Source: Ustulina deusta
Taxonomy: Eukaryota; Ascomycota; Sordariomycetes; Xylariales; Xylariaceae
Direction of reading: 5' to 3'
Length of the DNA stretch: 64,000 bases
Assembly (NCBI GenBank): GCA_023159155.1
Contig: JAJNNX010000048.1
Location: 248,001-312,000, forward strand
In this document: in pieces, positions 1,941-59,228 of the stretch
Layout: each line of letters begins with the position of its first letter
Position numbering within the stretch: position 1 is the first letter of the stretch
Made by a program: the position numbers and the translations under genes
Notes under the pieces: generated by a model
Seen by the model: only the letters and a program-made list of their open reading frames with translations
What the model was told of the DNA's origin: nothing
Databases searched by the model: none

Positions 1941-3831
1941 TTACATGCCCTCGAAATCGCCTCCAAGATCGTCCTCGTCCAAGTCGCCCTCTTGTATCTC
2001 CTTAGCCATCTCTCGTTCGCGTTCACGAGCCTCTTGGGCGTTCTTAAGTTCTAGTCGGTGTTGATTCATCGGAAAACGCATGGCCTATGTAATGAAAAAT
2101 CATGTCAGGAAATATTCCTCAAGGTATAGAAAACGAGGACCAAAGCATACCTTAACACTCTCATCGTGAAGACCGAGGCAGGCTCTAATACGATCGTGGA
2201 ATGCCTCCCCGGGCTCCCGTGTAGCGTAGACATCACCGACCTCTTTACTCTTCATGAAACCGTGCTCTCGATCTAGCGTGGCCTCGATCACACCGTCACG
2301 GATCGCCTTGGCCACTATATATTCAGCGCTCTCTTCACTGCCTAGATGTAGCCGGATGCATATGTCTCGTAGCGAAATTCGGCTATAGCTCAAGCTCATC
2401 ATCCGGATACCTGTCTTGATGACGTTCTGGCGTAGGCGGAGGATAAGAGAGTAGGTGCCGTCGCGGCGGAATGTGTCGGCATGATCGGCGATGGTTGTTT
2501 CAAAATCCTCTAGATTGCCTACCCGCACGGCTTGGACGAGCAGGAAGTATGGCCGCAGGGCCTGCTCCATGTTGGAAGCACGGAAGGTAGCACGCTCGGG
2601 AATGTCGCCCATGAGAAGCTCGACCACGAGCAAGAGCTTCGTCGCCGTTTGTGCGAAACCAAGAGCGCAGTTGCTGGCTGGCGATTTACGAGTCGCCGCG
2701 GTTAAATGCTCGTGGGCTTCGGTGTATCGGAGCTGGATCGCTCGGATACGGCCAAGGTAGTATAAGTAGCGCGCAACCTGGGTATTGGCCGCATTCTCGG
2801 GAAACTGAGTGTGAGACACGAGGAGATCAGCTTGCGAAATGTGGGAAGTCAGGAGATGGTTCCGGAGCAGCAGAACAATAACAGAAGCCTGCGTGTCGAT
2901 ATCCTTGCGCAAGACGGCAGTTCGGAGTGCGGTCAACAAAGTTGGTCGAATCGCAACGATGGGAGACCGAGGTGACGGGGGAAGCGGAGCAAGTTGCTCA
3001 CAGAATAGCGAGTAGTAGAAATAAGCCTTAGCAGACAGCGAATCTAGGGTTCGCCGATTGAGAGAATGTATACGGTCCGCTAGACACTTGGAAAACTCGG
3101 CACCCGATTGAAATTGCTTGGAATCAAACAGATAGACCTGGATGAGGATGGCTAGGAAGATGTCGATTTCGGGGATGATATCCTTGTTTTCTTTCTTGCT
3201 ACCATTCTTTGGGCTTTTTGAATCGTTATCGATCTCCATATCTGCACTAGGTTGTCGCCCTAAGGGCACGTCAGCCTTACCAATGGCGGCGAGAAGCTGC
3301 TTAGCCACAGCAGCGGATGCGCTCGTGGGAGGGAAGGTGTCGGCGATGACCTGAGAAAGAATGTCGGGAGTGAGGCGTTTGCGAAGGGACGAGATGGACC
3401 GCAAAGCGCGCAATGTAAATCTAGAATCAAACAAGGCTACGGCACGGTCGAGGAGGGCGAAATTGCTCTTGATATCTATGAAATGACAAGCATGGGTCAG
3501 CAAGGTTTCCAGCGTCCAGACAAGTCGATATAGAGAGCGACCTACCCGTAATAGCCTGTGTGACGGGGTCGACTTTGACCTCCAGTTCCTGGGCCTTATC
3601 TGGTTCATCCATGGCAATGTCTCCCTCAGCATCAGCGGGTGGTGGTTGCGATGATTGCTTTGTGGTCTTGGAGAGTGGAACAACAACGGTCATATCCTCG
3701 CCTTCCTTGACGTTCTTCTTGCCCTTGCCCTTCATCGAAGACTTCTCGTCGGTCATGTCAACATCTTTATTGTTCCGGATGCCGTTCTCGACAGGCTCGT
3801 TGCCGTTTGAATGGGGCGTCTTGCCTGGCAT
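1941..3831 (-). CDS. RPN3: 26S proteasome regulatory subunit RPN3 (three exons)
   Basis: Exons complement(3546..3831), (2151..3475) and (1941..2084) join to 584 residues. Introns are 3476..3545 (donor GTAGGT) and 2085..2150 (donor GTATGC), and both keep the frame. RPN3 (PSMD3) is a PCI-domain subunit of the proteasome lid. Residues 1-95 are a charged, disordered tail. The helical repeat core starts at about residue 96 (KSNFALLDRAVALFDSRF). The PCI region lies at roughly residues 415-520 and includes YSRISLRDICIRLHLGS. The last exon gives AMRFPMNQHRLEL, an ERERE run and an acidic end (LDEDDLGGDFEGM), the characteristic RPN3 C-terminus. Without the second splice the frame would end in unrelated sequence after DESVK. 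Length is close to that of other fungal RPN3 proteins. No anomaly is seen. Confidence 0.93.
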
Positions 3832-38318: not shown

Positions 38319-38333
38319 AAAAAAGATTCAAAA
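38319..38333 (-). terminator. RNA polymerase III-type T-run terminators after tRNA-Lys
   Basis: Reading on the minus strand, a T4 run (38330-38333) and a T6 run (38319-38324) follow about 40-55 bases after the tRNA 3' end. T runs of four or more on the coding strand terminate Pol III. Confidence 0.5.
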
Positions 38334-38373
38334 GTTTGGCTGCTACTCCAGTGACTGGAGGCATCAGGAATTG

Positions 38374-38501
38374 AGCCCGATGCGGGGGTCGAACCTATGT
38401 TCGGATTAGTATTGTCATGTAGATTTTGTCTTCTGATCGAGATGCTCACCCGCAACCTTGAGATTAAGAGTCTCACGCTCTACCGATTGAGCTAACCGGG
38501 C
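38374..38501 (-). tRNA. tRNA-Lys(CTT) with a 55-bp insertion in the T arm
   Basis: On the minus strand the acceptor stem GCCCGGT (from 38501) pairs with ATCGGGC before the discriminator T at 38374. The D arm has GCTC/GAGC and an A box (TAGCTCAATCGG). The anticodon arm is TGAGA-CTCTTAA-TCTCA, giving anticodon CTT with no intron at the usual 37/38 site. The variable loop AGGTT is followed by GCGG, then 55 bp of foreign sequence (38395-38449), then GTTCGACCCCCGC. Removing exactly these 55 bases restores a perfect T arm (GCGGG/CCCGC with a TTCGACC loop). The A and B boxes (GGTTCGACCCC) are both intact, so Pol III transcription is possible. It is either a functional gene with an ectopic intron or an insertion-inactivated copy. 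Confidence 0.85.
38395..38449 (-). other. GT-AG intron-like insertion inside tRNA-Lys
   Basis: The 55-bp insertion begins GTGAGC and ends CATAG, with a TACTAAT branch-point-like element 13-14 bases before the end. These are the marks of a filamentous-fungal spliceosomal intron, which is not expected in a Pol III tRNA gene. Removal as an unusual tRNA-endonuclease intron is an alternative. Confidence 0.7.
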
Positions 38502-39830: not shown

Positions 39831-42800
39831 AATAATAAATTTGAATTGTAAAAGTAATAGTCCTTATCTATTAATCTACGGACTAAAACTAGCTATATAG
39901 ATAAGATTACGTATATAGATCTACACATAGCGAAACTCCTTTTAACTAAGCATTATAAATAAAAGAAAATTGATTTAATTTAGCTATAGCAATAAAAACT
40001 AATTTAGCATAGCTTTTTTTAGTAGTAAAAATATATAAATATATTAAAAATAATTAGAAATTATTAATAAATAATTCTAATATAAATAAAATAATTTAAT
40101 AATATTAAAAAAAATTAAACTTAACTTATAATAAATAAATAAAAAGTATTAAGTAGTTTAGCTAATTATATAAATATTAGTTCTTTTTTTAAGAATATTT
40201 TAAAGTTAGATTATTTTTTTTAAACTAATTAAGTTTAGCTTTAATATAATTAAAATATTTATTATAGCTTTTATTATATTTGTTATAATATTTAACTATT
40301 TTTTTTTAATTATAATTTAGGTTTAATTAACTAGTTATATTTTTATTTTAATAATCTAAAACTAAAAATATTAAATATTTTTTTAAAATATTATAGTTTA
40401 TAATTTAAACTAATAATTTTAAGTTTATATTTTGTTTTAATTGTTTAATTATAGTTTTAGTTTTTTTTAATTTAGCTTAAGCTATTTTATAGTTATTTTT
40501 AATTTTAATACTTTTTTAATTTTGCTATATATTACTTTGCTTTAATTAATTAATTTTTTGTTAATTTTTAAATATTAATTTTTTTAGGTTAATAATTTTA
40601 GTTTTTAAGTTAGTTATTTTAGCTAAATAAAAATTTTTTGTTAGGTTAAGTACTAAACGTTTAGTATAGGCTTTTTTTTTTAGTTTTTTAAAAAAAAATT
40701 TAGATAATTTATTAATAAATTTTTTATTTATAATAAAAAAAGCTAATATAACTAATTTAGTTTGGTTAATATATATACTAGTTTAGAAATAAAAATCTAA
40801 TTATTTTATTTAAACTTAAAAAAAAAAAAAAATTAAAATAAAATTAATTAAGTATTGCTTTTTATTTAATAAAAAAATAAAAAAATTAATATTTATATTT
40901 TATATATTTAGTAGTTTGTTTAAATATTAGATTAGATTATATTAAACTAAATAGTTTTTAAAGCTTTTTTATAGTTTATTTTTATTTTTTAAAATAAAAC
41001 ATTAATAAACTTTAATATTTTCTAATTTTATAAAATTATTTTTTTATAAAACTTTTTATAAATTAAAATATTTATTTATTTTATTAATTAATTTATATAG
41101 GTTATATATAAAAATATATATTATAATTTTTTTTTAAATAAATCAAATAGTTAACTTATAAAATTAGCTAATCTAGTTTCTAGCTTATAAATACTATTTT
41201 TAATTTATAATAGCTATAAAAAAATTAATAATAATAAAATATTTTATTTATATAAAAAGCTTAATTTTTATAAAGAACTTTTAAGCATTATTTTTTTTTT
41301 TAGTATTAAAAATATTAAAAGTTAGTTTTTAAAATATATTAAAATTTTTAACTAAATATTAAAAAAAAAAAAAAGTTAATTTTTTTTATTTTTATATTAT
41401 ATTAAATAATATAAAACAAACTAAAATATTTAAAAATAAAAAACTTTTAAGTTAAAAATAATATTTATTATTTTTGCTAAAAAATAAAAATAACTAATTA
41501 TTGTTTATTTTTAAATAAAAGCTAAAATTAGTTTTTTTATATAAAAGTATTATTACTAAGATTTATTAATTAATTATATTTAATTTATAAAAAACTAAAT
41601 ATTTTATAAGTCTAAAACATTTTTAAAAGTTCTTTTAATAATAAAAAAATATATTAAATTATAAAAATTATTAAATATAATAACTAGTATTAGAGCTATT
41701 ATTTAAGCTTAGAAATCCTTTATTATTTATTTAATTTTTATTACTTTAAGAACTAGGGTTTTTTTTATATAGCTTTTTTTTTAAACTTATTAGTACTAAT
41801 TTTTAAATAGTTCTATTTTTATTTATTTATTATTTTTAATCTTTTTTTTAGTGCTATTTTTTTATTTTTATTAGCTCTAATATCTATTTTTTAACTATTT
41901 CTAATTTTTTTATTTATTTAAATATCTAATCTAGTTTTTATTTTATAGTAGCTATATTATTATTTTAAATAACTAATGCTATACTTATATTTTTTAAAAG
42001 ATTATTATAAAATAAAATATTTAAAGCAATAAATTTTTTTTTAATATTTATAAAACTTTATTGTTTAGTTTATTTTTATTTTTTAGTTTATAAAAACTAA
42101 TCTTTTAGTTTATAAAAACTAATCTTTTAGTTTTTAATAAATATCTAAACTTTTTAGACCTAATAATATATTTTTATTATAATATTTATTAAAATTATAA
42201 GTATATTTATTAACAAAATGCTTATTATTGCTTTTTGTTTTAGACTTTTTTTATTTTAAGTTTTAAAGATTTTTTTTTAATCTATAGTATTAGTTAGATT
42301 TTTGTTTAGATCTACTAGAATTATTTCTAGTTTTTTTTTTTGTACTTTTTTATATAAATCGGAAGTTTTTTTAATATTTTCTAGTTTTTTTAAATTAATA
42401 ATATTAGTAAAATCGCTCTTATTATTTAAGTTATTTAAGCTAAACTTTTTATAAGTATTATTAGAGCTGCTTTTTTTTTTTACTAAAGGTTATTTTTTAA
42501 TCTAATAATTATTTTAATAATATAAATTCTTTAATAATTAGTTAGCTAGAATAATTAATCTAATTTTTTTAAGTTTTTTTTAAAATATATTTTAATTAAA
42601 TATTTTAAGCTAAAACAAATATAAAATAGTTTAGTTTAAGCAAATTAAAAAAAAACTTAACTTAAAAAGTTTATTAATTATACTAGCTATACTAAGTTTT
42701 TTATTAAAAAGTTCTTATTATTTTAAAGCTATAAAATATTTTTATTTTATTTTTTTAAAAATAATAATAAATAATAAAAAATCTTTTTTGTTTAATTTAG

Positions 42801-44240
42801 TTTATTAAAATATTATACTAATATATAAATATAAATATATTTTTTTAAGATATTATGATATTTTGCTAGTATTAGTTTTAAATAAGTAAATAGGTTTGGT
42901 TTTTTTAGTTTTTATTAAAAAAAATTAAATAGTTTTAGATTTAGTAATAAATTAATCGTACGCAATTATGGACCCCTTCGTACGAAGGGGTCTAGCCAAG
43001 GGGGGTCTAGGCCAAGGGGTCCGGCTAGGACCTACCTATAGACCCTTCCGTACGGAAGGGTATATAGGGGGCTCCTACCTACCCATTTCCTTCCTTTCTT
43101 TCCTTTCCTTTGAGTGTGGCATATAGTGAATAGACTGTATTCCACCAACCTTGCAGGCATGTACTGCTGCCTTGGAAATATGCAGTACACTCCATTCAAA
43201 CATTTTTAATATTTTTATAGCTAGTAAGCTTATTATTATTATTTTTTTAGTTTAAAAATAAATGTTTAGTAAGCTAGTTTTTTATTAGTAATAAGCTAAA
43301 TTAAAAATTATTATTAGGTTTGTTTTATTTTTTATATTATATTTTAATATAAATAAAGTTTTTATTTTTCTAAATTAGGTAGTAAATATTAGAAAAAAAA
43401 GTTAGTTTATTTTATATTAATTTAATTAATGCTTTATTTTTTATAAATATTTTTAAATTAAAAACTTGTTTAATAACTACTAAAAAACTTTATTAGATAA
43501 ATTTAAAATAAATATTTAAAAATTAGTATTTAAAAAAAAAATCTAAATAAAATAGAAATATTTTTTATTTTTATTGGTTTGTTTAATTTAATTTTTTATA
43601 ATTTGTTTTAATTTTAGAAATAGCTATATAAGTTTTTTTTTAATATTAAGTAATAACTAGGTTTTATTTATTAATACTTTATTTAAGCTAGAACTAATAT
43701 TTTTTATTAAAAAAATATTTAATTTTATAAAATATTAATTTATAGCAATTTTTTTTAGTAATACAAACTAGCAAATATATATAATAACTAAAAAGAACTT
43801 TTTTTTAGTTTTTTTTTTATAATTTTATAAAAAAACTATTTAGTAATAGCTAAATTAGATTTATTAGCTATTTTTTATAGGCTAGTTTTAAACTTAAATA
43901 TATTTTTTTATAAGTTAGCTTTAAATATTTTATATTATATATAAAATTAAAATTTTTAATTATTAGTAGTTTTATTTAATATTAAAGTTAATTTTTATAA
44001 AAATAGTTTTAAATATAGTATATTAAAGATTTTTTTTTATTTTTTATTAGATCTTTTTATAAGTTTTTAGAAGTTTTTTTTAAATAAATAAAACTTAAGC
44101 TAGTTTAAATAATATATTTTTTTAAATTCTTTTTTAAGTTTAAAGTAATTTTTTTAAGTTTTTTTAAATATAAAAATTTTTTTATTTTAGAAATTTTATT
44201 ATTATTTTTTATACTAATTTTTTTTAAAGCTTAAAAATAT
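39831..44240. repeat. A+T-rich, RIP-like repeat block, left part
   Basis: Almost entirely A and T. The remaining C and G sit mostly in AGCT, GCT and AAG contexts, while CpA and TpG are rare. No gene is readable in any frame. This is the pattern left by RIP (C-to-T at CpA, both strands). A GC island interrupts it at 42957-43215. The original elements cannot be identified. Confidence 0.8.
42957..43215. other. GC-balanced island with two perfect palindromes inside the A+T block
   Basis: About 260 bp of normal composition. It has a 22-bp perfect palindrome at 42971-42992 (arms GACCCCTT, centre CGTACG) and a 20-bp one at 43042-43061 (arms ACCCTTC, centre CGTACG). Between them AAGGGG/CCAAGGGG motifs repeat in TAGGCC-type surroundings. 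The right half (TCCTTTCTTTCC, then a unique segment to ACTCCATTC) is unrelated. No coding sequence. Confidence 0.75.
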
Positions 44241-44510
44241 TGCAGCAGGGCTGGTGCTAGCGGCCCGCTGGCAGCTGCGAATGTGGCTGTACGTCAATTG
44301 TTAGCCGTATTCGGGCCGCCCGCGGCCCGAACCGGCTGATCTTCGGCTGTATTCAGGGGGTTCGAATAGCTATAAAAGCCTTCGAACTTCTTAGAGCAAT
44401 ACTTACTTCAGACCCATAGCAATTTATACTAGTTTTCTAGTAGCAGGCGCTCTAGTTTGTTTTTGTTGTTTTTAGTTGTTTTTGGTGTCGAGTTGCCCCG
44501 TTCTTTTTTA
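44241..44510. repeat. Left LTR
   Basis: 270 bp starting TGCAGCAGGGCTGG. It differs from the right LTR at 13 positions by my count, all transitions. Its last bases read TTA where the right copy has TCA. Confidence 0.88.
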
Positions 44511-44536
44511 ATGGTGTTCTCGGTAAGGCTACGATA

Positions 44537-47453
44537 GAGCAGTCCGCCATACAAATTTGTATGTGACGATGCTCGCAAACGCTTATTGCTCCTCGGAGCG
44601 CGACCTGTGATCGGAGACCAATGCTTGACGCCCTCCTATACAAATTTATATACGAATATGTCCACAACACGTCAATAGACTCAATGCCAGCTTTGCGCGA
44701 AGACCAACCCAGTCAATTAGTCAGCCAGTCGATCAGCCAACCTACGAACAGCCAATTCCCCGTATAAATACATCCACGAGCAGCCCTCCATACAAATCCA
44801 CATACAAGTCTGCTCATGGCTGTACACCTTCCGGGAAGCCTAGTTTGTTGGCTATACGTGTTGAACAGCCGATTAAGCCTACCTCCAGGGAAGCCTTCAG
44901 TTTTGTGTTGATCAGTCAGTTCGTACGTTCATGTACGCGTTCGAGCAGTCCGCCATACAAATTACTATGCGAACATGCTCCCACTTGTACCCTATACGCC
45001 ATACATACGATGCACCGATCAGTCAATCGCCCTCGTTTTCTAGGCCTCGTTAGCCAGGCTAGTCATATACGCGTTGATCAGCCCAATCGGCCCATTGCCT
45101 TGTTGGCCAGCCATACGTATTGCCGGGTCAGTCAGTTAGTTGGTCAGTCCCTTCGTTGAGAAATTGTTAGAGCAGACCTACATATATTTTGTATGCAAAT
45201 ATGCTCGTACGCCTTCTAGTCCAAGGGAAGTCTTTGTTCCAAGCTGCCGATCAGTCAATCAGACAGTTAGTCGATTAGCCAATTGCTCGCGCAAACACAA
45301 GTTCCCTATCCGAATACACCTACGAGCCGAGTCCCATACAAGTTACTATACAAACCAGCTCGCAGATGTACAGCCTCCGGGGAAGCCTTTGTTCTAGCCC
45401 GCAATTGCCGATCGCCAACCTTGCCGCGTTGATCAGCCAAGTTGCCTCGTTGGCTAGCCTCCATATTCGAATACCCGTACGAACAAGTTGCCATACAAGT
45501 TTATATGCAAACCCGCTCGTACGCACATTACCCATGGGAAGCCGTCGCTTCAAGTCCTTCGTTCAGTCCTTTGTTTAGTCAGCGTTTTGTTAGCGATCAG
45601 CCGGATCCCCTGTCACATACAATCCTACGAACAGATTCCTATACATATTTGTATGTGAATACGCTCGCAGCATTGTAGCCTATAGGAAGGTCCGCTCTAA
45701 GCCACGCATTTGTTCGAAGCTTCCGTTAGCTATACGTACACCTCTGTTTTCGTTAATTTTGTTGTTTAGCATTTTCGGCATTTTCGGCGTTTTTAGCATT
45801 TGGCGTTTTTAGCATATTCGGCATTTTTGTTGTTTTTTGTTATTTTTAGGCCTTTATACCGTTAATCAGCTAGTTCTTTTATACGAGTCGCTATACGAAC
45901 AAGTGCTTATATAGTTTATATGGGAGTTAGCTCGAATACGTACGGTCCAAGGGAAGCGTTGATCAGACCTTGTTTTTAAAGCTTTGTTTTAGAAATATTG
46001 TTTTTGTTGCGGTGTTTAGCGCTATATATTGCTTTTTGAGTTGTTGTATTGTTGAATAGCTAGGCTTACTATGTTTGGTAGCTTATAAACATATTTATGT
46101 ACTAATTTATATATAAATATATTTGTGGCTTATAGAGGAGCGTTTATTTTTAGTTTTAATTAACGAATTGCTATGCTATTGGTTAGCTAGTTTTTTGTTT
46201 TAGTGGCTATACTGTTTAATTCTTTATGTTTAATGGCTGTACAAGCAGATCCTTATATAAATTATATGTAAATATGTTTTTATACCTATGATCTAAGGGA
46301 AGCTACTGTTCTAATTGACGGATTGCCACGCTGTCGATTAGCTAATTTAGCTATTATCTAATATATGTACGTATAAGTAATCTCCTATACTAATTTGTAT
46401 TTGTGTATGTTTGTATTAATATGTTACACCCTGTTTGCTGTTGATTGGCAATTTTGTTATATATGCGTTGATTAGCAAGTTTACTACGTTTTTATGTGAT
46501 TTTTAGCTATATTTACTGTTGATTAGCGATTTTTTTGTTATATATGCTATTAATTAGTAAGTTTACTACGTTTTTATTTGTATACAAGCAGGCGTATATA
46601 TAGTTTTCTATGCAAACCTGCTTATATATATATTATTTACCTATGTGAAGGCTTTTCGATTAGCCCTATACTATTCTATGCTATATATAAGGTAATACTG
46701 ATCAGTTTATTTGTTTGTTTTGCTGATTAGTTAGTCTATATAAAGGATATAGGCATATAAACAATTGTTTATATAAATTATATAGCAATCTGCTTATACT
46801 TATACAACCTATACGTCCTACGCTTTATATACATAGCAATACATATATAGCGCTACAAATACAGCATAGTACTGCTGATTAGTTAATTTGTTATTACTGC
46901 GCTGATCAGTCAAATCGCTATTGCTACACTAACCAGTCAATCTGTTGTATACAAGCAAACTCCCATACTATTTTATATATGAACTTGCTTGTAGCATACC
47001 AATTATATGGTTAGCCGCACTGCCGATTGGTTTGTAGTTGCTACAGATACAGCACAGCACTGACAAATCGTCATTGCTACACTGATCAGTCATTTGGTTG
47101 CATACGAACAGCTCCCCATACTATTTTATATATGAACCTGTTCGTACTATATATATTACATAGCTATTGCAGCACTGCCGATCAGTCAATTCGTCATTGC
47201 TGCGCTAATCAGTTATTTGGTTGCATACGAACAATTCCCCATACTATTTTGTATGTAGACCTGTTTGTACTATATATATTATATGGTTATCGCAGCACTG
47301 CTGATTAGTTAATGTATCATTGCTGCGCTGATCAGCCATTTTGTATACGTATGCATAGCACTGCTGATGTGTTATTGCTGCGCTACCGATCTACAATTCT
47401 CCTTCTGTGTACGAGCGGCTACCTATACTGATTTGTATAGGGACGCGCTTATA
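44537..47453. repeat. Array of about 18 diverged hairpin-containing units
   Basis: Each unit has an imperfect inverted repeat: outer arms like CGAGCAG...CTGCTCG and an inner palindrome like CATACAAATTTGTATG. Most are followed by a GGGAAGCC-type motif and a GATCAGTCA-type motif. Hairpin starts are near 44537, 44626, 44777, 44942, 45169, 45323, 45476, 45628, 45896, 46085, 46241, 46369, 46584, 46755, 46950, 47101, 47224 and 47409. Several successive spacings are about 152 bp. Units to the right are more A+T-rich and more diverged. Confidence 0.75.
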
Positions 47454-48035
47454 CTTGCAATATTCAGAGTTATTCATAAAGTCCACAAGGCCGATCAGTG
47501 CCTATTCTATGAATTCCGACCTATATATACACTACCAAAAAATGTTACTGCAGTTATATAGAGATTTGTATGTAATAAAAAGTAGTGAGAGCTATGGCGT
47601 GACTTTTTGTACAGAGATTTAGTTTGGGTTCGAAGTAGTGGCTAACTGTAGCACCCACCTAGGTTCTAACACGAAAGTACTAGTAGATACCGCTACATAT
47701 GTTAGGTTTGGACAGAATTGCACACGTTTTATATAGGAATATATTGAAGGAATATAAAAGAATGGGCATTTGAAGGGCTAAAAGGTTATGCCAGTGGGCA
47801 TACGGACCAAAGGAAGAAGCTATAGACCAAGGGAAGTCTATTGTAATATGCGACCGGTTTAGCAATCGGCTGATCAAGGGCTTGGTGGCCTAGTGGGTTA
47901 GGGCTGGTTCTTTTTTTTTAGGCTGTTGAGGCCTAGGGGTTCGAGTGGGTGTTGTGTTGTTGTTTTTGGTGTTTTCAGCCCTGCATTTTTGGATTCAAAG
48001 CCATCTGGAGAATAAGGCTTCGAATAAGGGAAGTT

Positions 48036-48305
48036 TGCAGCAGGGCTGGTGCTAGCGGCCCGCTGGCAGCTGCGAATGTGGCTGTACGTCAATTGTTAGC
48101 TGTATTTGGGCCGCCCGCGGCCCGAACTGGCTGATCTTCGGCTATATTCAGGGGGTTCGAATAGCTATAAAAGCCTTCGAACTTCTCAAAGCAATACTTA
48201 CTTCAGACCTATAGCAATTTATACCAGTTTTTTAGTAGCAGGCGCTCTAGTTTGTTTTTGTTGTTTTTAGTTGTTTTTGGTGTCGAGTTGCCCCGTCTTT
48301 CTTCA
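48036..48305. repeat. Right LTR
   Basis: 270 bp, same orientation and length as the left LTR, about 95% identical. It ends TCTTCA just before ATATAAAG. Confidence 0.88.
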
Positions 48306-51300
48306 ATATAAAGCTTTAGTATTATTTTATATATATTGTTTTAAATAAATATTAATATTTTTAAAATTAAATATAACTAAATAAGTTTTATTAAAATAAA
48401 ATAGCTTAAGTTTTTATATATATATTTAAAAATATTTTAAATTTTTAAAAATAATTAAATTATTAATAAACTTTATTTTAAAATTAATATTAAAAAACTA
48501 ATATTATTTATAAAAAATAGCTTCTAGCTTTAGTTTTTTTTTTTATATATGGACTAATATAATTACTTTTTTTAGTATAACTATATATCCAAAAAATAAA
48601 AAGATTAAGCTAATTTTTTTTTAAAGCTTTAGTTTGAATTGTTTTTGTTTGCTTTATATAAATATTTTTTAATTGTTTTTTTAATTAAAGTGATTATTTT
48701 TAAAGTTAGAAATTTTAGATTTTTTGTTTATACTAATTTTTTGGTTGCTTAGCCGGAAAAAATAACATTTTTTAATTTTCTTTTAGTATTGTATTACTTT
48801 TTAATAAATAAAACTTTTTTAATTAATAAATATTTATTAGTCCTAAGCTATTTTTAATTAGGTTAAATCGAATTTATTAATTAATATATTATATATTTTA
48901 GTACAAATAAAATAAACTTTGTTTATTTTTATTTAAAAAAATTTAGAAAATTTTTAATAATAATAAGTTTTTATTTTAATAATTCCTAAGCTATTTTTTA
49001 GCTATTTGGACTATATATTATAAAATTATTTATAAGCTTTTTTATATTTAAAAACGCTAATTATTTTTAGTTTAAATAATTTATAATTTATAGGGTTAAT
49101 AATATTAGATTTTTTTACTTTAATAATTTTTATTATTTTTTATTATTTTTAGTATTTAAAAAAGAATTATTTTTTATAAAAAATAATAAATATTTTTATT
49201 TTTTTTTCTAGTTCTAATTAGCTTTATTGCTTTAAAAACTAATTATTATTCTAGTTATTTTAGCTTATAAACTATAGATTTTTTTTATTATATTTAAAAA
49301 TAAATATATATTTTGTTTTTATATTATTTTTTTTTAAAAATTTTTTTTTATTATAATATATTTATATTGTTTATATTTTATAAAATATTTAATTTTTTTA
49401 GTTTTAGTTATGCTTAGTTAAACTTTTGCTTTAGTTTAATAAGTTTTTTTTTATGTTTAGTTAGATTATATTTTTTTTATTTTTATTTAATTAGAAATAA
49501 AAAAAGTTATAAAAAAATATATATATTTAATTAATAATTTTAAAAAATAATTTAATTAAAATAAAAAATTTAATTTATAAAATAATATAAAGCTTTAAAT
49601 AAACTAAAGCTAGCTTTTTTTAAAATATAAATAATAAAATTAAAAATAAGCATAAACTAGATTAGTAAATATAAAGCTTAAACTTATAATTAATAAGTAT
49701 TAGTATATAAATAAAAAATATTTTATAAATAAAAGTTAGAAAAGTTTTTTTTTTTTTAATTTATTATTTAGATCTTTTTTTAATTTAGGCCAAATAGTAT
49801 AAAGTTTTAAATAAAATAATTATAAAATAAAAATATTATATAAAATTAAGTAGATTATTAGTAGTTTAAATAAGAAAGATTTAATTAGTTAGTAATTATT
49901 TGTTTAGTTATAAATAATATACTTTTTTTTTTTTTTTTTTAAAAATCTTTGTTATTTTTATTTATTAAAACTACTAAAATAGCTCTAATATTTTAGGATA
50001 TAAGTTAAAAAAAAAATTTTTTTTTATTAAAAAAATTTTATAACTTAAAATGTTTTTTTTTTATTAATTCTTTAATTTGCTAGCTAACTTTTATATATAT
50101 AGTTTTAATTTAGCTAAGCATATTAATATTTAAATATAAATAAAGCTTAATATTATTAATATATATTTTTTAGATTTTTTTTTTATAATATATTTATAAT
50201 TTGTACTAAAACTTCTAATATGATATTAGTAATTTTATATAATTTTTTTTATACTAAATAAAGTTTTGCTATTTTTATAATATTATATTAAAGATTATTT
50301 TTTTATTTTTAATATAATTATATTAGTTAGTTTTAATTCTAGATATATTTTTATATTTATTAGTTTTTTTAGTACTTATAAGCTGTTTTTTTTAATAAGT
50401 TTTCTTTTTTATACGTAATTAAAAACTATTATATTTTTTTTAATTTTTTTTTGTTTAATTACTAAATGTTTTGTTATACTTAGTTTAAAAGCTTTATTTA
50501 TAATAATTTTTATATTAGCTTTTTTTAGTACTAAAGCAGTTAAATATATATTTTATTTAAATAAAATCTAAGCTAGTAATAAATTAATACTAGTTATTTT
50601 TTATAAATTAATAATTTTACTAGTTTTTTATATATATATTAGCTATTTTTCTAAATTAATATATTTAATTTTTAATGCTTATTTTTTTAGCTATATAAAA
50701 ATAAATTAAATATTTTTTTTTATTAAGCTATAAGTTTATAAAAAATTAAAAAAACTATATTTGATTTTAGTTCTTTTTTTTTTTTAAATATTTCTTTAAT
50801 AAGTTTTTTTTTTAAAACATATTATTTATAAACAACTATTAAAAATAACTAAATACCAAAATTAAGATTTTTTAAGCTTAAATAATAAAGAACTATTTTA
50901 TTTTTTTAATTATAAAAACAAAAATAAATCAGCTAAAATAATTAATTATAATCAAAATATAAAATGCTTTATTAAAAACTTTTAAATATATTAGTTTTAT
51001 ATAATTTATATTTATTATATTTTATAGTTTTATAATAACTATTTTTTTTTTAATAATTAGAAATAGTTTAAGTTTAACTTTAATATAAATATAATATTAT
51101 TTATAATATTTAATTATATTTAAAAATTAAAAAAACTATTAAAAATAAGCTTATAAGTTATAGAAAATTATTAGAATACTAAAATATTTATAGCTATTAT
51201 AAGCTTATTTTAAAATAGTATTAATTTTGTAAAGTAATAAATATTTAGAAAAATAGCTATTTTATTTTTTTTAGTAAAAATATTTATTAATAATCTAGTA

Positions 51301-54300
51301 ATAAAATAAGTTTTAAACTATATAATAATATTTGTTTAAAAAAAAATCTTTTTATATTTTATAACTTAGAATTATAACTTTTATAATATCTTTATATTAT
51401 AAATAAGCTAAATAATTTTTGGAAAAGTTTTTTAAGTTTTTATTAATTAAATTAATAGAAATAAATAAAAAAATATTTAGATTACTTTTTTTTTTTTTTA
51501 AAATATAAAAAAGAAAAGCTAAATATTAGTAAAGTTAACTATAAAAAAAAGCAATTTTTAGAATCAAATTGCTTAATAAGTATATAAATTAATTTATTAA
51601 TTTAAAATAATCTATTTATAATTTTAATAATTTTAGAAGTATTTAAATAGTAATAAATAACGAACTAATATTTTTGTAATTATTTAATCTATATAGCGAT
51701 TTTTTTTTAGGCTTTTAATTTAATTTTTAAAATATTTATTAAGTTATAATAATCTATATATAATATAATTAAAAACTAAAATTTAATAATTAATTAATAA
51801 TATTTTATTAAGTAGCAGACCACTTTTAAAGTTTTTTTTTTTTAGTATTATATTTTGTTTTTAAATTAGAAAGTCTAAATAATATAAATATAAAAACTTT
51901 TATAAAGATTATATTTTTATTAGTAATTTTAGTTTTAATAAATTAACTAGCTATTTAGAATAATATTTTATTTAGCTTTATTAATAAAGCATTAATAGTT
52001 AAATAATATTAAATAAAAAGATTTAAATATTTAATAATATAATTTTAGATTTTTTTATATATTATATAGAAAGTTTTTTGTTATTTTTTTATTTATTTAA
52101 AAAGCTTTTTTATTTTTTTTTTTTAAATAAAAGGTTTTTTTTTTAAAGTTACTTTTAAAACTAATTTCTAATAAGCACTTTTTAATATATTAATTAAGTT
52201 TATTTTTTCTAAAAAATATATTTTAAAGTATAGACCTAAATATAAAAAGTTTTTTAGTTTTAATATATTAGTTAGATAATTTTTATTTAATACTTATTTT
52301 TTAAATTGATTTTAATGCTTTAAAAATAAATATATTTGTTTTTAGGATAATTTAAAGCTTAATATATTAATGCTATTTATAAATAAGATTATTTTAAAAA
52401 AAAAAAGCCAATTGGAATAAATATAATTTATAAAAAATAATAAATATATAAAAAATTAAAAAGATTATTAAATATATAGCTAAACGTATTATAGTTATTA
52501 ATAAAAATATTAAAAAATAGTTCTTATTTTAAGTAATATTTAAAAAAAAAAAAAAAAAAAAGCTTAAAAAATTCTTTATAAATAGCTATTTTTTAAAACT
52601 AATATTTTCTAAAGTATAATAAATATAAAAAAAACTTATTATGTTTTAAAATATTTTTTAATTTATATATTAATTATTAGAAGTAATAAATCTAGTTTTT
52701 AGTTAATTTTTATATTTTGTTAGCATAGCTTAAAACTTATAAGTAGTATTTTTTTTAAAAAAAAACATTATAATTTTTTTAAATTAAAGTATAAAAAACT
52801 CTATTTTATTAATATATTAGCTATTAAAGCTTAATAATAGTTTGATTTATTAAAATATAATAATATATAAATTTTTTTTTTTTAGCTTATTTTTAAATAA
52901 ATAATAAGTTTATGCCCCTTAAATAGATATCTTTAAATAAATAAAGCTAATAAATTCTAGTTAAAAAAAAATTCTAGTAATAAATTTTTTTTTTTATAAT
53001 ATATTTAAATTAATAAAACTAAAAAAAAATAATTATAAAATTAGTTATAATAGTATGTTTAACTAAGTTAGTTTTTTTTATATTTTTAAAACTTATAATA
53101 AAATAATTTTTTTAAGTATAGTATAGTTTTTAAGCTAATGTTTGCTATTTTAAAGTTTTAGTTTTATTTTTAATAATAAATAAAAATTAAACAAACTATA
53201 TATTAACTATAGTTTAAAAGTTTTTAAACAAAAAATATTATTTAGGTTTATATTATATTTAGGGTTTTTTTTATATTTTCTAGTTTAAAAAAATATATTT
53301 AAATAATAATAAAAATATAAAATTATAAAAAATAAAAATAATTAATTTTTGTTTTTTAAAAAAACTGATTAGTTTTATATTAATTACTAAATTTATATTA
53401 AATTTTTTTTTTAAATTTTTTTTAATATTATTACAAAAAGATTTATTTTGTTTTATAGCTATTAAAGCTAAATCTATATCTAAACAATTATTTAGAACTA
53501 ATATTGTTTATTTTTAGTTATTATATATATTAAGCAATAAAAATAATTAATTTGTTTTATTTTTAATAATATAATAAAACTTAATAAAATAAGTTTTATT
53601 ATTGTTTTAATTTAATAATTTATACTAATATAATATTTTATTATAATTAGTATTAAAAATAAAAATTATTTTTTTAATAAATAAAAAATAAATTAGCTTT
53701 TTTAAAAATTTTATATATTTATTAATATAATTAAAAATAATTAATAAAAATAATCTTATATATTTAAAAAATGCTTTATTAAAAATAATAAGTAGCGGAG
53801 CTTATAATAAATATTTATTTTAAACTTTAGTTATAATAAGTTTTTTTATTAGTAATTTATTTATAATTTATAAATTAATAAAAAATAGATTTTTTATTAT
53901 AAATATTAAAATAGTATTATTAATATTAATAAATAAGATTTTTTTAGCTAGTATATTTAAATTTATTAGTAGTTTAAAAATAATTTCTAGTTTAATAATA
54001 AAATTTTTTTTTTTTTAGTTTTTCTAAAGTTTAAACAATAATAAATTAATACTTTAAGTTATATAAATATTCTTTTTAAGCTTGGCTTAAAATTAAGCTT
54101 TTGTTTAGTTTTTTAAAAAAGTAATTAAAGCTAATACTAATTTAGCAATATTTAATATTTTTTTAACTAGATTTTTATTAGTTAAGTTTTAATCTAAAAC
54201 ATTATTAATATTTTATTTTTTTTTAGAACTAAAAAATCTTTTAAAATCTTTTTTAAACTTAATAAACAAATCGTTATTAGTATAAAAAAATTAAAAAAAT

Positions 54301-57300
54301 TTATTTTTAGCTTTTTAAATATATATAAGTTTTATAGCTAAAATATTTTATATAATTAAAGTATTAAATATTCTTTTTAAGCTTTATAAAATAATTTAAT
54401 TAGTTTTATAATTAATAATTACTAAGTTTTATTTTAATTAAGCTTTATTAAAAAATATTTTATAAATCTAATTATTTTTCATAATATAAGCTTTTATAAT
54501 AAATAAAAATTTTTTTATAACTAAAAAAAAAACTATATAATATTTAATCGAAGTAATATTATTATTAGCTATTTTTAGTTCTAATAGCTTAAAAATAATA
54601 CAAAAAAATAAATTATGTTATATTATATATATAAAGCTTATTAAATTAGCTAAAACTTTTTTATTAACTAAAATATAATTAATAATAATTTTATTAAATA
54701 ATTTTATTATTTATTTAAGTTTTATTTTTATAGACTATAGTAATAACTAAGCTTTATAAGGTTTAAAGCTTTATTAATATAAAATAATGCTTTTTTTTTT
54801 TTTTTTTAAATTTTAGCTGCTCTAGTTTAGTAATTAGAAATAATTTTATTTTTTAAATAAGCTAAGCTCTAATAATAAAAAAATAATTAAAAAGTTAGCC
54901 TTATATAATTTAAAAAAAAAAAGTAGTATAAAAAAAGTATTTAATATTAATTTAGTTTTTTTAATTATTTTTATAAGCTTAGATTAAAATAATATTTTAT
55001 TTTTAGATAACTTTTTTAGTTTTGATTAGCTAACAGGTTAGTTAATCCTAAAGCTATTTATTAAAAAATGCAAGTTTTGCTGCTTTTTTTAAATAAAAAA
55101 ATTAGCCTAAAAAAAAGCTTATTTTTTAGCTTTTTTTAAATTAGCTAATAAACTTTTTAATCCTAAAAGCTTATTAAATATAGCTATATTTTTAAAAAAA
55201 AGCTAGTTATTTTTTTTTTTTTTTAGGTCTAATAAAAAAGTATATACTATATTTTTGTTTTTTAAAAAAGTAAAAATTAGGCTTATAAATAATAAAAACT
55301 ATTTAACTTTAATAAACTATTTTTTTTATTAAATAATCTAGGTTTATTAAAAGTTTTTTATTTTTTTTAATAATCTTTTCTATATTTATAAACTATATAC
55401 TAATAAAGTTTTTTATATTTAGATTAGTTTTTAATAAATTATATTAAAAATAAATTAGTAATAATTATTTTTATTAAATAATATTATAGATCTGATTTTT
55501 TTTTTAAATTTCTATTTTTTAGTATAATTATAAAAAAAATATTTTTTAATTTTATAGTTCTAATAGATTAAAGGTTTTTTATTATAACTAAAGTTATAAT
55601 TTTTTTTTTTGCTTGTTTTTATATTTTTTATAGCTTTTTTAATTTGTTTTATTACTAGTTTTTTTAAGGTTAAGCTTATTTTTATATTTATTAAAAAAAT
55701 TAATAAAAAAATTATTTTAAGCGTTCTAAAATTAATATAAAAAAGTTTATAAATTTAAGTTTTAATTAAATAGTTTTGTTTTTTTAATTATTTTAAAAAT
55801 AAAGTTCTATTTATATATTAAGTTTTTTTATAAATATTATAACTAAAAAAAAAATATAAAGTTTAAGTTTTTTAAAAAAAAACTATAATATATATTAATT
55901 AAATAAAAACTAAATTAAAAAGGTTAGCTATAGATTTAGCTAAAATTTTTTTAAAGTATTAGTAATAGTAATACTTAGTTTTTTTTAAAATTTGCTTTTA
56001 AATAGTTTTTTAAATAAGTAAACTATTCTAGTTTTAATTTAGTTAAAAAAAAAAAATTTTTTTAAGCTTTAAAGCATAAATAATAATAATTTTTTTTATG
56101 TTTTAATAAATATAATTTTTTTTAAACTTTTTAAAATTATTTAAAAATTTAGTATTAATTAAATAGTTTATAATTTTTTTTTAGATTTTTTTTTTATATA
56201 TATTTTTATAAAAACGTTTTTTTAGTTTATTTAATTAATTATTATTAGTTTAATTAATATAGTTAGCTAAAGATTTATTAGTTTTTTAGTTAAATTTATT
56301 AATTTAAGCTTTAAAACTAACGTTTTAATTCTAGATTTTTAAAAAAAAGCGTTTTTTTAGACTATTTTATAAAACTTAATAAAATTTTTTTTTTTATAAA
56401 AAAATACTAATATTATTTTCTAGTATTTTTTTATAAATTATAACAAAATACTAACTATTTTTTAGTTTTATTTAGCTATTTTGTTTTATTAGTAGTTTTT
56501 AGTTAAATATTAAAAAAACTAATACTAAAAAAGTTATAAAATAATTTTTTAATATAAATATTTATATTATTAATATATTTTTAAGGATTTTTTTTTATAA
56601 CCCTTTAAATATAAAAGCTTTAAAAATTAATTTTTTTTTTATTTAGAGCTAATCTAGTTTAAAAATAAAAATTAGGGTTAAAAACTATTTAAATAAAAAT
56701 TTTCTAATTTAAAATATATGCTTTAATTTAAAAAAAATAAAAAAATTAATTAGAAATTAAAAACTTTAATTAAAAATTAATATAAAAAATTTACTTTAAT
56801 AAAATAAAAAATCCAAAAAATTTAATAAATATTTTAATTTTTTTTAGATTTAGTTGTAAAAATAAAAATATTTTCTAATTATATATTAATATTTTTTTTT
56901 ATTAGAATATCTAATAAGATTAAATCAAAAAAATTAATTAATAATATATATAAATTAAAAGTTATAAAACAAAAAAAATCTAATAAACAATTAAATAATA
57001 ATTATATAAAAAATATCCGTATATAATTAGTTAATATTATTAATTAATAGTTTTAATTTTTATTAAAAAAACATACTAAATTTTAGTTAAATAATTAATA
57101 AAATAAAAAATAATAATAATTAAACTAAATAAAAAGCAATTTTTTACTTTTTAATAGATTTTTGTTTTTAGAAAATTTATTAGCTTTATAAATATAAAAA
57201 ATTAGTAAATAATTAGGCTAAAAAAAGCTAGTACTAATAGATTTTTTTTTATAATAATAGATTTACTACTATATTAATAGAACTACTTTAATTTTTTAAC

Positions 57301-57340
57301 TTTTTTTTTTTAAAAATAATCTTTTTTAATTTTTAATTAT
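48306..57340. repeat. A+T-rich, RIP-like repeat block, right part
   Basis: Nine kilobases of near-pure A+T, as to the left of the LTR element, with long poly-A and poly-T runs. No frame, RNA or terminal repeat is recognisable. It is probably several saturated, RIP-mutated transposons. A centromeric or heterochromatic role cannot be judged from sequence. Confidence 0.78.
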
Positions 57341-57342
57341 TA

Positions 57343-57392
57343 AATATAAGCTAACACCCCCCCTTGCGAACCACCCTATTGCAACCCAGCTA
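57343..57392 (+). repeat. Left terminal inverted repeat of the TA-flanked element
   Basis: Matches the right repeat in inverted orientation at 46 of 50 positions by my count. The subterminal CTAACCCTAACC at 57402-57413 is not a telomere. Confidence 0.8.
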
Positions 57393-59228
57393 AAAACGCA
57401 CTACTAACCCTAACCACCTCAATTAAAAATTATTAAATAATATAACTACGTTTAGTTCTTATGTTCTTTTTTTACTTTTATTTTCTTTAGAATTAACTCC
57501 TTTTTATTGCAATATTTTTATATAGCAACTAATAGCGTGCAGTAGCTATAGTTCATACTGCTTAACTTAATACTTTATAAAAACAAGCAGTTATTTAATA
57601 AAGTATTAACTGGTTATATATATACTGCTGCTTTAATAATATTCTAACTAAAAAACAGTTATACTAATACTTTTAGATCTTATTTTTATATTTTAAAACT
57701 AAACTAGCTAATTAAGCTATAAATTAAGCTAAGCTAAACTTTATATTTTTAATAGTCAAATTTAAATATATAGCTAAACATATATTATTAGTTTTTAAAA
57801 ACTTTAAAATACTTAGAAAATTATAGCATATATGTTTTTTTTTTTATAATCCTAAGCTAAAAATTGCTAAATTAACGTTTATTAGTTATTTGTGTATTAA
57901 TAGAGCAACTATAGCTAATATTAAGCTATTTTTTAAATGTTTTAAAGCTTTTAAACTAGCAAATATATTTTTAAAACAATTTTTTAATATTAATAAAATA
58001 AGTATTAGCTAAAGTATAAAAAAAGGTTATTAAGTTATTTATAAAATTTTAATATATATAGCTTTAAAAAAAAACTTTAAAAAAAACAAATAAATAATAT
58101 TTTTTAAATATATTAGTAATAAAAATATTGTTTTACTACTACTGCTTATTTTTAAAAAAATTAATATTTAAAATTAATAGTTTTTAAATATAAATTATAG
58201 TTTATTTAAAAATTAGCAGTTTAAAACTTTGCTTAATAAATAAACTTATAACTTTATTATTATTAATTAGCTTATTAATATTTTTATTTTATTTGTTTAA
58301 AGCTATTTTAGCAATATATAAGTTATACTAATATATAATAGCTATAATTTATATATAAATAATAACTTTTTATAGTTTTATTTTTTAAATAAAATATAAC
58401 TTATTTTTTATAAACTATACTATAGCTATATTATATAAGCGTTAAATATTAAAGTTTTTAGTTTATTAAAAAAAAAGCTTAAAAATAAAATTAAAAAAAT
58501 ACTTAAAAGCTGCTTTAGCGTTATATTTTTAAAAAAAAACATAATTATAATATATAAACAAGCTTGCAATATTATTTTATTACTAAAAACTATTAAAAAA
58601 TATAAATAATAATTAAAATATAACTAAAAAATATTTAATTATTATTATTTTTAAAATATATTATGTTTAAAAATAAAAATATTGCTTATAAAGTTTAACT
58701 AATATTTATACTAACTAATCGATCTAAAATATTTAAATATTAGCTTAAACTAAACCAAATAAAAATTATAATACTTATAAAAAATTAAAATTTATAATAT
58801 ATAACTCGGAAATTAGCTAAGTACTACTTTTTCTTTAATAACCTACCGCAAAAGCTATTTTTTATAAAAGCTAATAAAGCCTTTAACTAAAAAGCTAAAA
58901 AAATTGCAATTTTAAAAGCATATATTAAACTATTAAAAGCCAAACTAGCTAAAAAAACTATATTAAAGCGCAAGTTAGTCAAATTGCTACTTAGTTATTG
59001 TTTTATTTGTATAACCTATATATAGCAAGTCAAGCAAAAATTGCAATAGCAAACGCTATATACAAATAAAACTAGAAATAAGAACGTACTAGAAGCAAAA
59101 AAAACAAAAACTAAAAATATAATTAAGGTTAAAACGTTTTAATATTTAATAAAAATACTAAGGTTAGCTATAAATACTATGTTATGTTATAAATAATAGC
59201 TTCGAAAGTTAGTGGGTGGCTATTTTGG

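Follow-up and report, generated by a model that had tools for sequence, protein, structure and literature searches.

A candidate spliceosomal intron in the T arm of nuclear tRNA-Lys(CTT) genes of the fungus Ustulina deusta

Introduction

By the textbook division, introns of tRNAs are removed by an endonuclease and a ligase, and introns of mRNAs by the spliceosome. Outside mRNAs, the accessible text of a 2017 survey (PMC5832005) names U3 and U6 as the sole small structured RNAs for which frequent interruption by an intron is known to date; for fungal U3 introns it gives a consensus of donor GTRWGT, branch site RCTRAY and acceptor YAG, with a spacing of 6-36 nt. The word spliceosome is absent from the accessible text of a review that covers tRNA introns at unusual places (PMC4090602).

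Here we analyse a stretch of 64,000 nucleotides from Ustulina deusta (the window), in which a first, sequence-only reading had pointed to an interrupted tRNA-Lys(CTT) gene and had offered three options: a spliceosomal-type intron, perhaps an introner-like insertion; a new ectopic tRNA intron; or a dead copy. The spliceosomal option is now the best supported of the three, since three interrupted copies of the gene in this genome keep their exons and splice signals around diverged intron bodies, and the sole copy with broken exons also has a broken donor.

Results

An interrupted tRNA-Lys(CTT) gene in the window

The gene lies on the minus strand (38501-38374), which corrects the orientation first assumed, and matches the Rfam tRNA model over model positions 1-71 of 71 with 52.4 bits (gathering cut-off 29). 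This match, in whose alignment the insert falls in the T arm, and intact sister genes elsewhere in the genome confirm that a tRNA-Lys(CTT) gene is interrupted there by a 55-bp GT-AG insert. Removal of bases 38395-38449 leaves a complete 73-nt cloverleaf, as had been read, in which all pairs of the two stems counted, 7 in the acceptor stem and 5 in the T stem, are standard, and the joined exons are identical at 73/73 positions to three uninterrupted genes. The anticodon loop was rightly described as free of an intron. Because of one G, the junction can be placed at either 52/53 or 53/54; GT-AG fits the former. The motif TACTAAT ends 10 nt before the end of the insert and not 13-14 bases as first given, which puts the likely branch A at a distance of 11 nt from the final intron base. 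An A box, a B box and a T-run terminator are all present in the sequence, the boxes being what we take them to be from the familiar motifs; of the promoter boxes, said earlier to be intact, both are indeed complete, the B box only by drawing its first G from the insert. The features are listed in Table 1. ARAGORN, run over the window in its bacterial setting, reported no tRNA.

Table 1. Positions of the features of the window tRNA-Lys(CTT) gene and of the two U6 genes over the cut-off
Feature	Position	Strand	Basis
tRNA-Lys(CTT) exon 1, nt 1-52 (acceptor 5' strand, D arm, anticodon arm CTT, variable loop, T stem nt 1-4)	38450..38501	-	Rfam match; identical to three intact genes
A box TAGCTCAATCGG	38483..38494	-	sequence; familiar motif
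55-nt GT...AG insert at nt 52/53, proposed spliceosomal intron	38395..38449	-	sequence; 17.1 bits
5' splice-site-like GTGAGC	38444..38449	-	sequence; matrix from 24 introns of same genome
Branch-site-like TACTAAT, likely branch A 38406	38405..38411	-	sequence; CTAAT = 6.7 bits
3' splice-site-like TAG	38395..38397	-	sequence; TAG ends all 4 interrupted copies
B box GGTTCGACCCC; last base of insert is its first G	38385..38395	-	sequence; familiar motif
tRNA-Lys(CTT) exon 2, nt 53-73 (remaining T arm, acceptor 3' strand, discriminator T73)	38374..38394	-	Rfam match; identical to intact genes
Conserved 3' trailer: acceptor-3'-strand partner (hairpin A), covarying hairpin B, AGCAGC	38339..38373	-	common to seven copies; pair counts
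T6 run, candidate Pol III terminator	38319..38324	-	sequence
U6 gene (L087 1501-1652)	G000:C91:574090-574241	plus	over cut-off
U6 gene (L088 1501-1650)	G000:C69 from 1560121	minus	over cut-off

About 440 bp downstream of the window tRNA copy lies an ORF on the same strand. Upstream, at ~1-1.5 kb, begins a block of ~19 kb (about 40000-59000 of the window) with a G+C content of mostly 8-22% per kb and a richer island at ~44-48 kb, as expected for repeats hit by repeat-induced mutation. A proteasome subunit is encoded at 2100-3686 of the window (99% identity over 85% of the query to a Ustulina deusta record).

Seven loci, four interrupted at one site

A search for other tRNA-Lys(CTT) genes, suggested in the sequence-only reading, was made over the whole 56-Mb assembly of this one genome with the joined exons as query, and it yielded seven loci. 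Three are uninterrupted and identical (contigs C1, C24 and C39), and four are interrupted at the same site (C67, which is the window copy, C102, C90 and C29), their matches stopping at nt 53-55. The interruption falls exactly at GCGG / GTTCG in 4/4 copies, which lie on four contigs and carry four different inserts, of 55 nt in C67, 63 in C102, 64 in C90 and 60 in C29. Compared with the intact genes, C67, C102 and C90 each show 0/73 exon changes. In C29, 5/73 positions are changed, acceptor pairs 3-70 and 5-68 are broken, U8 and A58, near-invariant in tRNAs, are altered, and the donor is GC instead of GT; judged by its sequence, C29 is a dead copy.

The insert cores, compared after trimming 6 nt from the start and 20 nt from the end of each insert, were no more alike than shuffles in any pair (0/6), and the inserts of C67, C102 and C90 have nothing detectable in common beyond splice signals. 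In the 45 bases upstream, too, the seven copies do not resemble one another consistently; farther upstream, C24 and C102 have a few short similar blocks by eye. Given that inserts and upstream flanks have diverged and the exons are unchanged, the exons would have stayed fixed over the time of that divergence. Gene conversion could have contributed to their identity, provided that its tracts ended at the insert; from the sequences, conversion alone does not easily explain fixed exons beside diverged inserts, which it would likewise have copied or removed.

The 55-nt insert of the window is its own single match in the 56 Mb at E<=10, in a search that may miss repeats; the sequence-only reading had proposed looking for the same insert elsewhere. 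An introner origin, one form of its first option, was accordingly discarded, near-identical copies elsewhere not having been found in that same search (56 Mb, E<=10; repeats may be missed). That reading had also named, as one part of what would count against it, intact tRNA-Lys(CTT) genes carrying the decoding load. Such genes do exist (3/7), which does not make the interrupted copies dead. They could supply the tRNA, so the interrupted genes need not be essential, and reads across the mature junction cannot decide the matter because the spliced product equals the RNA of the intact genes.

Splice signals of the inserts

Donor, branch site and acceptor were scored with a matrix built from 24 introns of chaperonin, Ras-family and proteasome genes of the same genome, a small set that was picked by eye in knowledge of these motifs; a GC-AG candidate (L081, second gap) and an intronless stretch (L103) were left out of it. 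The curated mRNA introns measure 49-165 nt, 22/24 of them 49-104 nt, and the inserts of 55, 63 and 64 nt fall within the length range typical of the mRNA introns of this genome. A GT donor and an AG acceptor with consensus neighbours are found in 3/3 healthy copies, in each with TAG at the end, and not in C29. The donors GTGAGC (C67), GTGAGT (C102) and GTTAGT (C90) score 5.7, 7.1 and 5.5 bits respectively, and the branch 5-mers CTAAT, TTAAC and CTAAC are followed by 10, 12 and 12 nt, a fungal-like spacing in all three, with that of C102 being a weak match to the branch site. Set against the U3-intron consensus in the accessible text of PMC5832005, the donors of C67 and C90 (GTTAGT) are each off by one base and their branch sites fit, whereas in C102 the donor fits and the branch site, TTTAAC, is off by two.

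Total signal scores are 17.1 bits for C67, 17.1 for C102 and 18.7 for C90. Random windows of each insert length, drawn from the window and the flanks of six loci with both registers allowed, reached these values in 2, 0 and 0 of 100,000 cases, and GT..AG windows of equal length did so in 2/374, 0/351 and 0/390. The low score of C29 (8.1) stems from a weak donor with GC in place of GT, and it was reached by 58/403 GT..AG windows and by 313 of 100,000 random ones. On these sequence counts, the splice signals of the window insert can be taken as not due to chance. The inserts contain no T5 run, which means little since only 1/24 of the mRNA introns has one.

We consider it unlikely that the interrupted copies are defunct tRNA genes that took up an insertion, with exons that still look good because the copies are young or because gene conversion kept them so. 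In favour of this view, three intact genes exist in the genome; C29, one of the four, is indeed dead, and by the accessible text of PMC4090602 insertions in tRNA arms, which in eukaryotes mostly affect a single gene out of many synonymous ones, are presumed signs of a pseudogene. However, a recent origin fits ill with insert cores devoid of detectable similarity and with largely diverged flanks, and conversion from the intact genes would erase the insert, just as conversion among interrupted genes would homogenise it. Moreover, splice signals are kept in 3/3 healthy copies, and the eroded cloverleaf of a pseudogene is seen only in C29 and not in C67, C102 or C90. The dead copy considered in the first reading of the window is thus hard to recognise in a gene with 0/73 exon changes and good splice signals; erosion is confined to C29.

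Introns in U6 genes

Five matches to U6 were obtained, and the two that exceed the cut-off (Table 1) both have mRNA-type introns, at different sites. That of C91 is 53 nt long (GTACGT..ACTAAC..GCAG), lies between AGAAGAT and TAGCATGG and scores 21.4 bits; that of C69, read by eye as the Rfam alignment does not display it, is 50 nt long (GTAAGA..GCTAAT..GGCAG), lies between GGTCAATTTG and AAACGATACAG and scores 17.1 bits. The C91 intron contains a B-box-like CAGTTCGAATCCC. The three weaker U6-like matches (L089, L090 and L091) look degraded, with an intron-like remnant still in L090, and the one U3 match has no clear intron by eye.

Since the U6 genes of this fungus have mRNA-type introns and, by their sequences, also appear to depend on splicing in order to mature, it is plausible that small Pol III-type RNAs are spliced in it. 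The cap that helps splicing of the first intron is absent from Pol III transcripts; judging by U6, the analysis suggests that a missing cap is no bar to splicing.

Conserved 3' trailers

About 45 nt downstream of the tRNA are common to the seven tRNA-Lys(CTT) genes (L001, L002, L003, L059, L060, L062 and the window). A trailer query matched six of the seven loci, not C29, and T-rich runs follow the trailer in six copies, with C29 being C-rich there instead. The acceptor 3' strand GCATCGGG can form a helix with the trailer, whose variant is CCT (CCTGATGC) in 4/4 interrupted copies and CCC (CCCGATGC) in 3/3 intact ones, a distribution that fits one intron origin followed by duplication. A second trailer helix shows both-side changes in 3/7 pairs; its covariation score was reached by 1/500 shuffles, its both-side pairs by 19/500 and its number of further pair types by 463/500. 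Slid by +1, the same helix gave a covariation of 0.152 versus 0.146 with 38.8% versus 94.1% of cells paired, the C67 row being misaligned in it. The trailer GCAAC (GCAGC in the window copy) can also pair with tRNA nt 47-51. In minimum-energy folds of three interrupted precursors with trailer, the acceptor 3' strand pairs with the trailer, and in that of one intact precursor it does not; the precursor-fold z-scores, from -0.29 to -4.67, are too uneven to build on. Against Rfam, the seven loci gave no family over a cut-off except tRNA, and the trailer as a known Rfam family was set aside on that count. It was rejected also as the cause of the split, since the intact genes carry it too.

Trailers are not peculiar to these genes. 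Four tRNA-Ala(AGC) genes have a conserved one, GGAGG-TTCAATT-CCTCC or close variants, and directly after them (L025-L028) stands a conserved second T-arm-like hairpin with a B-box-like GGTTCAATTCC, in the variants GGTTCGATCCC in L028 and GGTTCAATCCC in L027. A trailer is common to 2/3 Ser(GCT) genes, side by side; L022/L023 (G000:C45:317343-317651) are an identical tRNA-Ser(GCT) pair, tail to tail and inverted, ~150 bp apart, with similar trailers. No clear conserved trailer was seen in the Val, Met, Gln, Thr and Lys(TTT) genes. At L059 554-728, weak matches to many microRNA families occur on both strands, all far below cut-off, and this is probably an inverted or low-complexity repeat. Trailer and split-gene patterns found 0 matches in viral_contigs and 0 in genome_contigs, which hold viral and prokaryotic sequence and say little here.

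The structured trailer in all seven copies raises the thought that the insert is a spliceosomal intron of a gene that is now for another RNA, either one made by Pol II or a small RNA of tRNA plus trailer with no part in translation. N. crassa milR-4, which in the accessible text of PMC3547838 is cut by RNase Z from a tRNA-Ala precursor, is a precedent for a small RNA from the tRNA-trailer position, and the window copy precedes a same-strand ORF by ~440 bp. But the trailer of the intact genes does not set the interrupted ones apart, and exons identical at 73/73 positions to ordinary-looking tRNA genes speak for a tRNA, so that we hold such a change of role to be quite improbable.

Bulge-helix-bulge and other tRNA introns

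A relaxed bulge-helix-bulge search, which the first reading had put forward as an in silico check, found no central helix in C67, C102 or C90 in either register. Among canonical 37/38 introns of this genome, the central 4-bp helix was present in 4/4 tried, with more cut sites searched, and the full relaxed motif occurred in 81/2000 random inserts. The insert sits at 52/53 and not at 37/38, where many other tRNA genes of the genome carry canonical introns. In loci covering all 58 Rfam tRNA matches (63/2280 candidates scored, hence at least 58 tRNA genes), every intron resolved by ARAGORN is at about 33-41; some extra intron-bearing predictions are probably spurious, and one 91-nt Tyr gene was left unresolved. 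None of the four interrupted tRNA-Lys(CTT) genes was reported by ARAGORN. Similar inserts in other tRNAs, which the first reading had thought worth seeking, did not appear with nine other tRNA sequences as queries: none of 36 matches from these nine tRNA types broke off in the T arm, and at two loci among them the match ended early or was divided, at about nt 37-47.

It is therefore very improbable that the insert is an ectopic tRNA intron of the sort found in archaea, Cyanidioschyzon or nucleomorphs, which the tRNA splicing endonuclease would remove. The accessible text of PMC4090602 does list archaeal introns at 53/54 and nucleomorph introns in the T arm. Nevertheless, with the relaxed motif in 0/3 copies in either register, this option of the first reading lacks the bulge-helix-bulge at its junctions, the yeast enzyme cuts strictly at 37/38 (accessible text of PMC4033280), and the GT-AG and branch signals would be left unexplained. 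An assembly error or slip, finally, has next to no chance of being the cause, with different inserts at the same site in three further loci, four contigs and four loci in all.

Discussion

Taken on the sequence evidence, the 55-bp insert is most probably a U2-type spliceosomal intron at 52/53 of a working nuclear tRNA-Lys(CTT) gene, with one gain followed by duplication and divergence. From it we infer the following course of transcription, splicing, processing and descent. The gene would be read through tRNA, intron and structured trailer to the T run, the most likely polymerase being Pol III acting from the internal A and B boxes; the spliceosome would cut at GTGAGC and TAG via the TACTAAT branch point and so restore the T arm; and RNase P and RNase Z, needing acceptor stem and T arm, would finish the tRNA only after splicing. 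The intron would have entered one ancestral tRNA-Lys(CTT) gene once, and this interrupted gene would then have been copied, its intron bodies drifting and selection holding exons and splice signals. In the wider sense, the spliceosome probably matures a nuclear tRNA here, in a family of tRNA-Lys(CTT) genes with T-arm introns that would be selectively held beside intronless sisters and gate part of the supply.

If this is true, a T-arm GT-AG intron held in three diverged tRNA copies would join both splicing worlds. It makes testable the splicing of an uncapped, tightly folded Pol III-type RNA, as well as whether the tRNA ends are processed only after splicing and by what route genes for small RNAs acquire introns. 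It is also a warning for annotation, as software that accepts introns near the anticodon alone may overlook such genes or label them pseudogenes. A spliceosomal intron in a nuclear tRNA gene was not found among the literature matches listed, with most subscription journals outside their coverage, nor in the accessible text of reviews of tRNA introns and splicing (PMC4090602, PMC4033280 and PMC13149111) and of tRNA ligase (PMC13247085). This suggests that, mRNA-type introns of small RNA genes being known, it is the tRNA as host that is new and not found in print.

The mRNA-type introns of fungal U6 genes, in fission yeast and others, resemble those described here in being short GT-AG introns with a branch site in a gene for a small Pol III-type RNA. 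They differ in that the host here is a tRNA, a class with its own separate splicing enzymes, and in that intron-bearing and intronless paralogues of it coexist. In fungal U3 snoRNA genes, by the accessible text of PMC5832005, introns are likewise GT-AG with a branch site ~15 nt from the end, and eight genomes have both intron-bearing and intronless paralogues, as here; the introns of U3 paralogues, however, are almost always very similar, whereas the tRNA-Lys(CTT) inserts are alike only in their signals. The ectopic introns of nucleomorphs, red algae and archaea also lie away from 37/38, the T arm included, but those of archaea and the red alga are linked to bulge-helix-bulge cutting, unlike here, and for the Guillardia nucleomorph introns the stated length is 3-24 nt, compared to 55-64 nt here (accessible text of PMC4090602). 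From the canonical 37/38 introns of eukaryotic tRNAs, the insert differs in position, in signals and in the enzyme expected to remove it.
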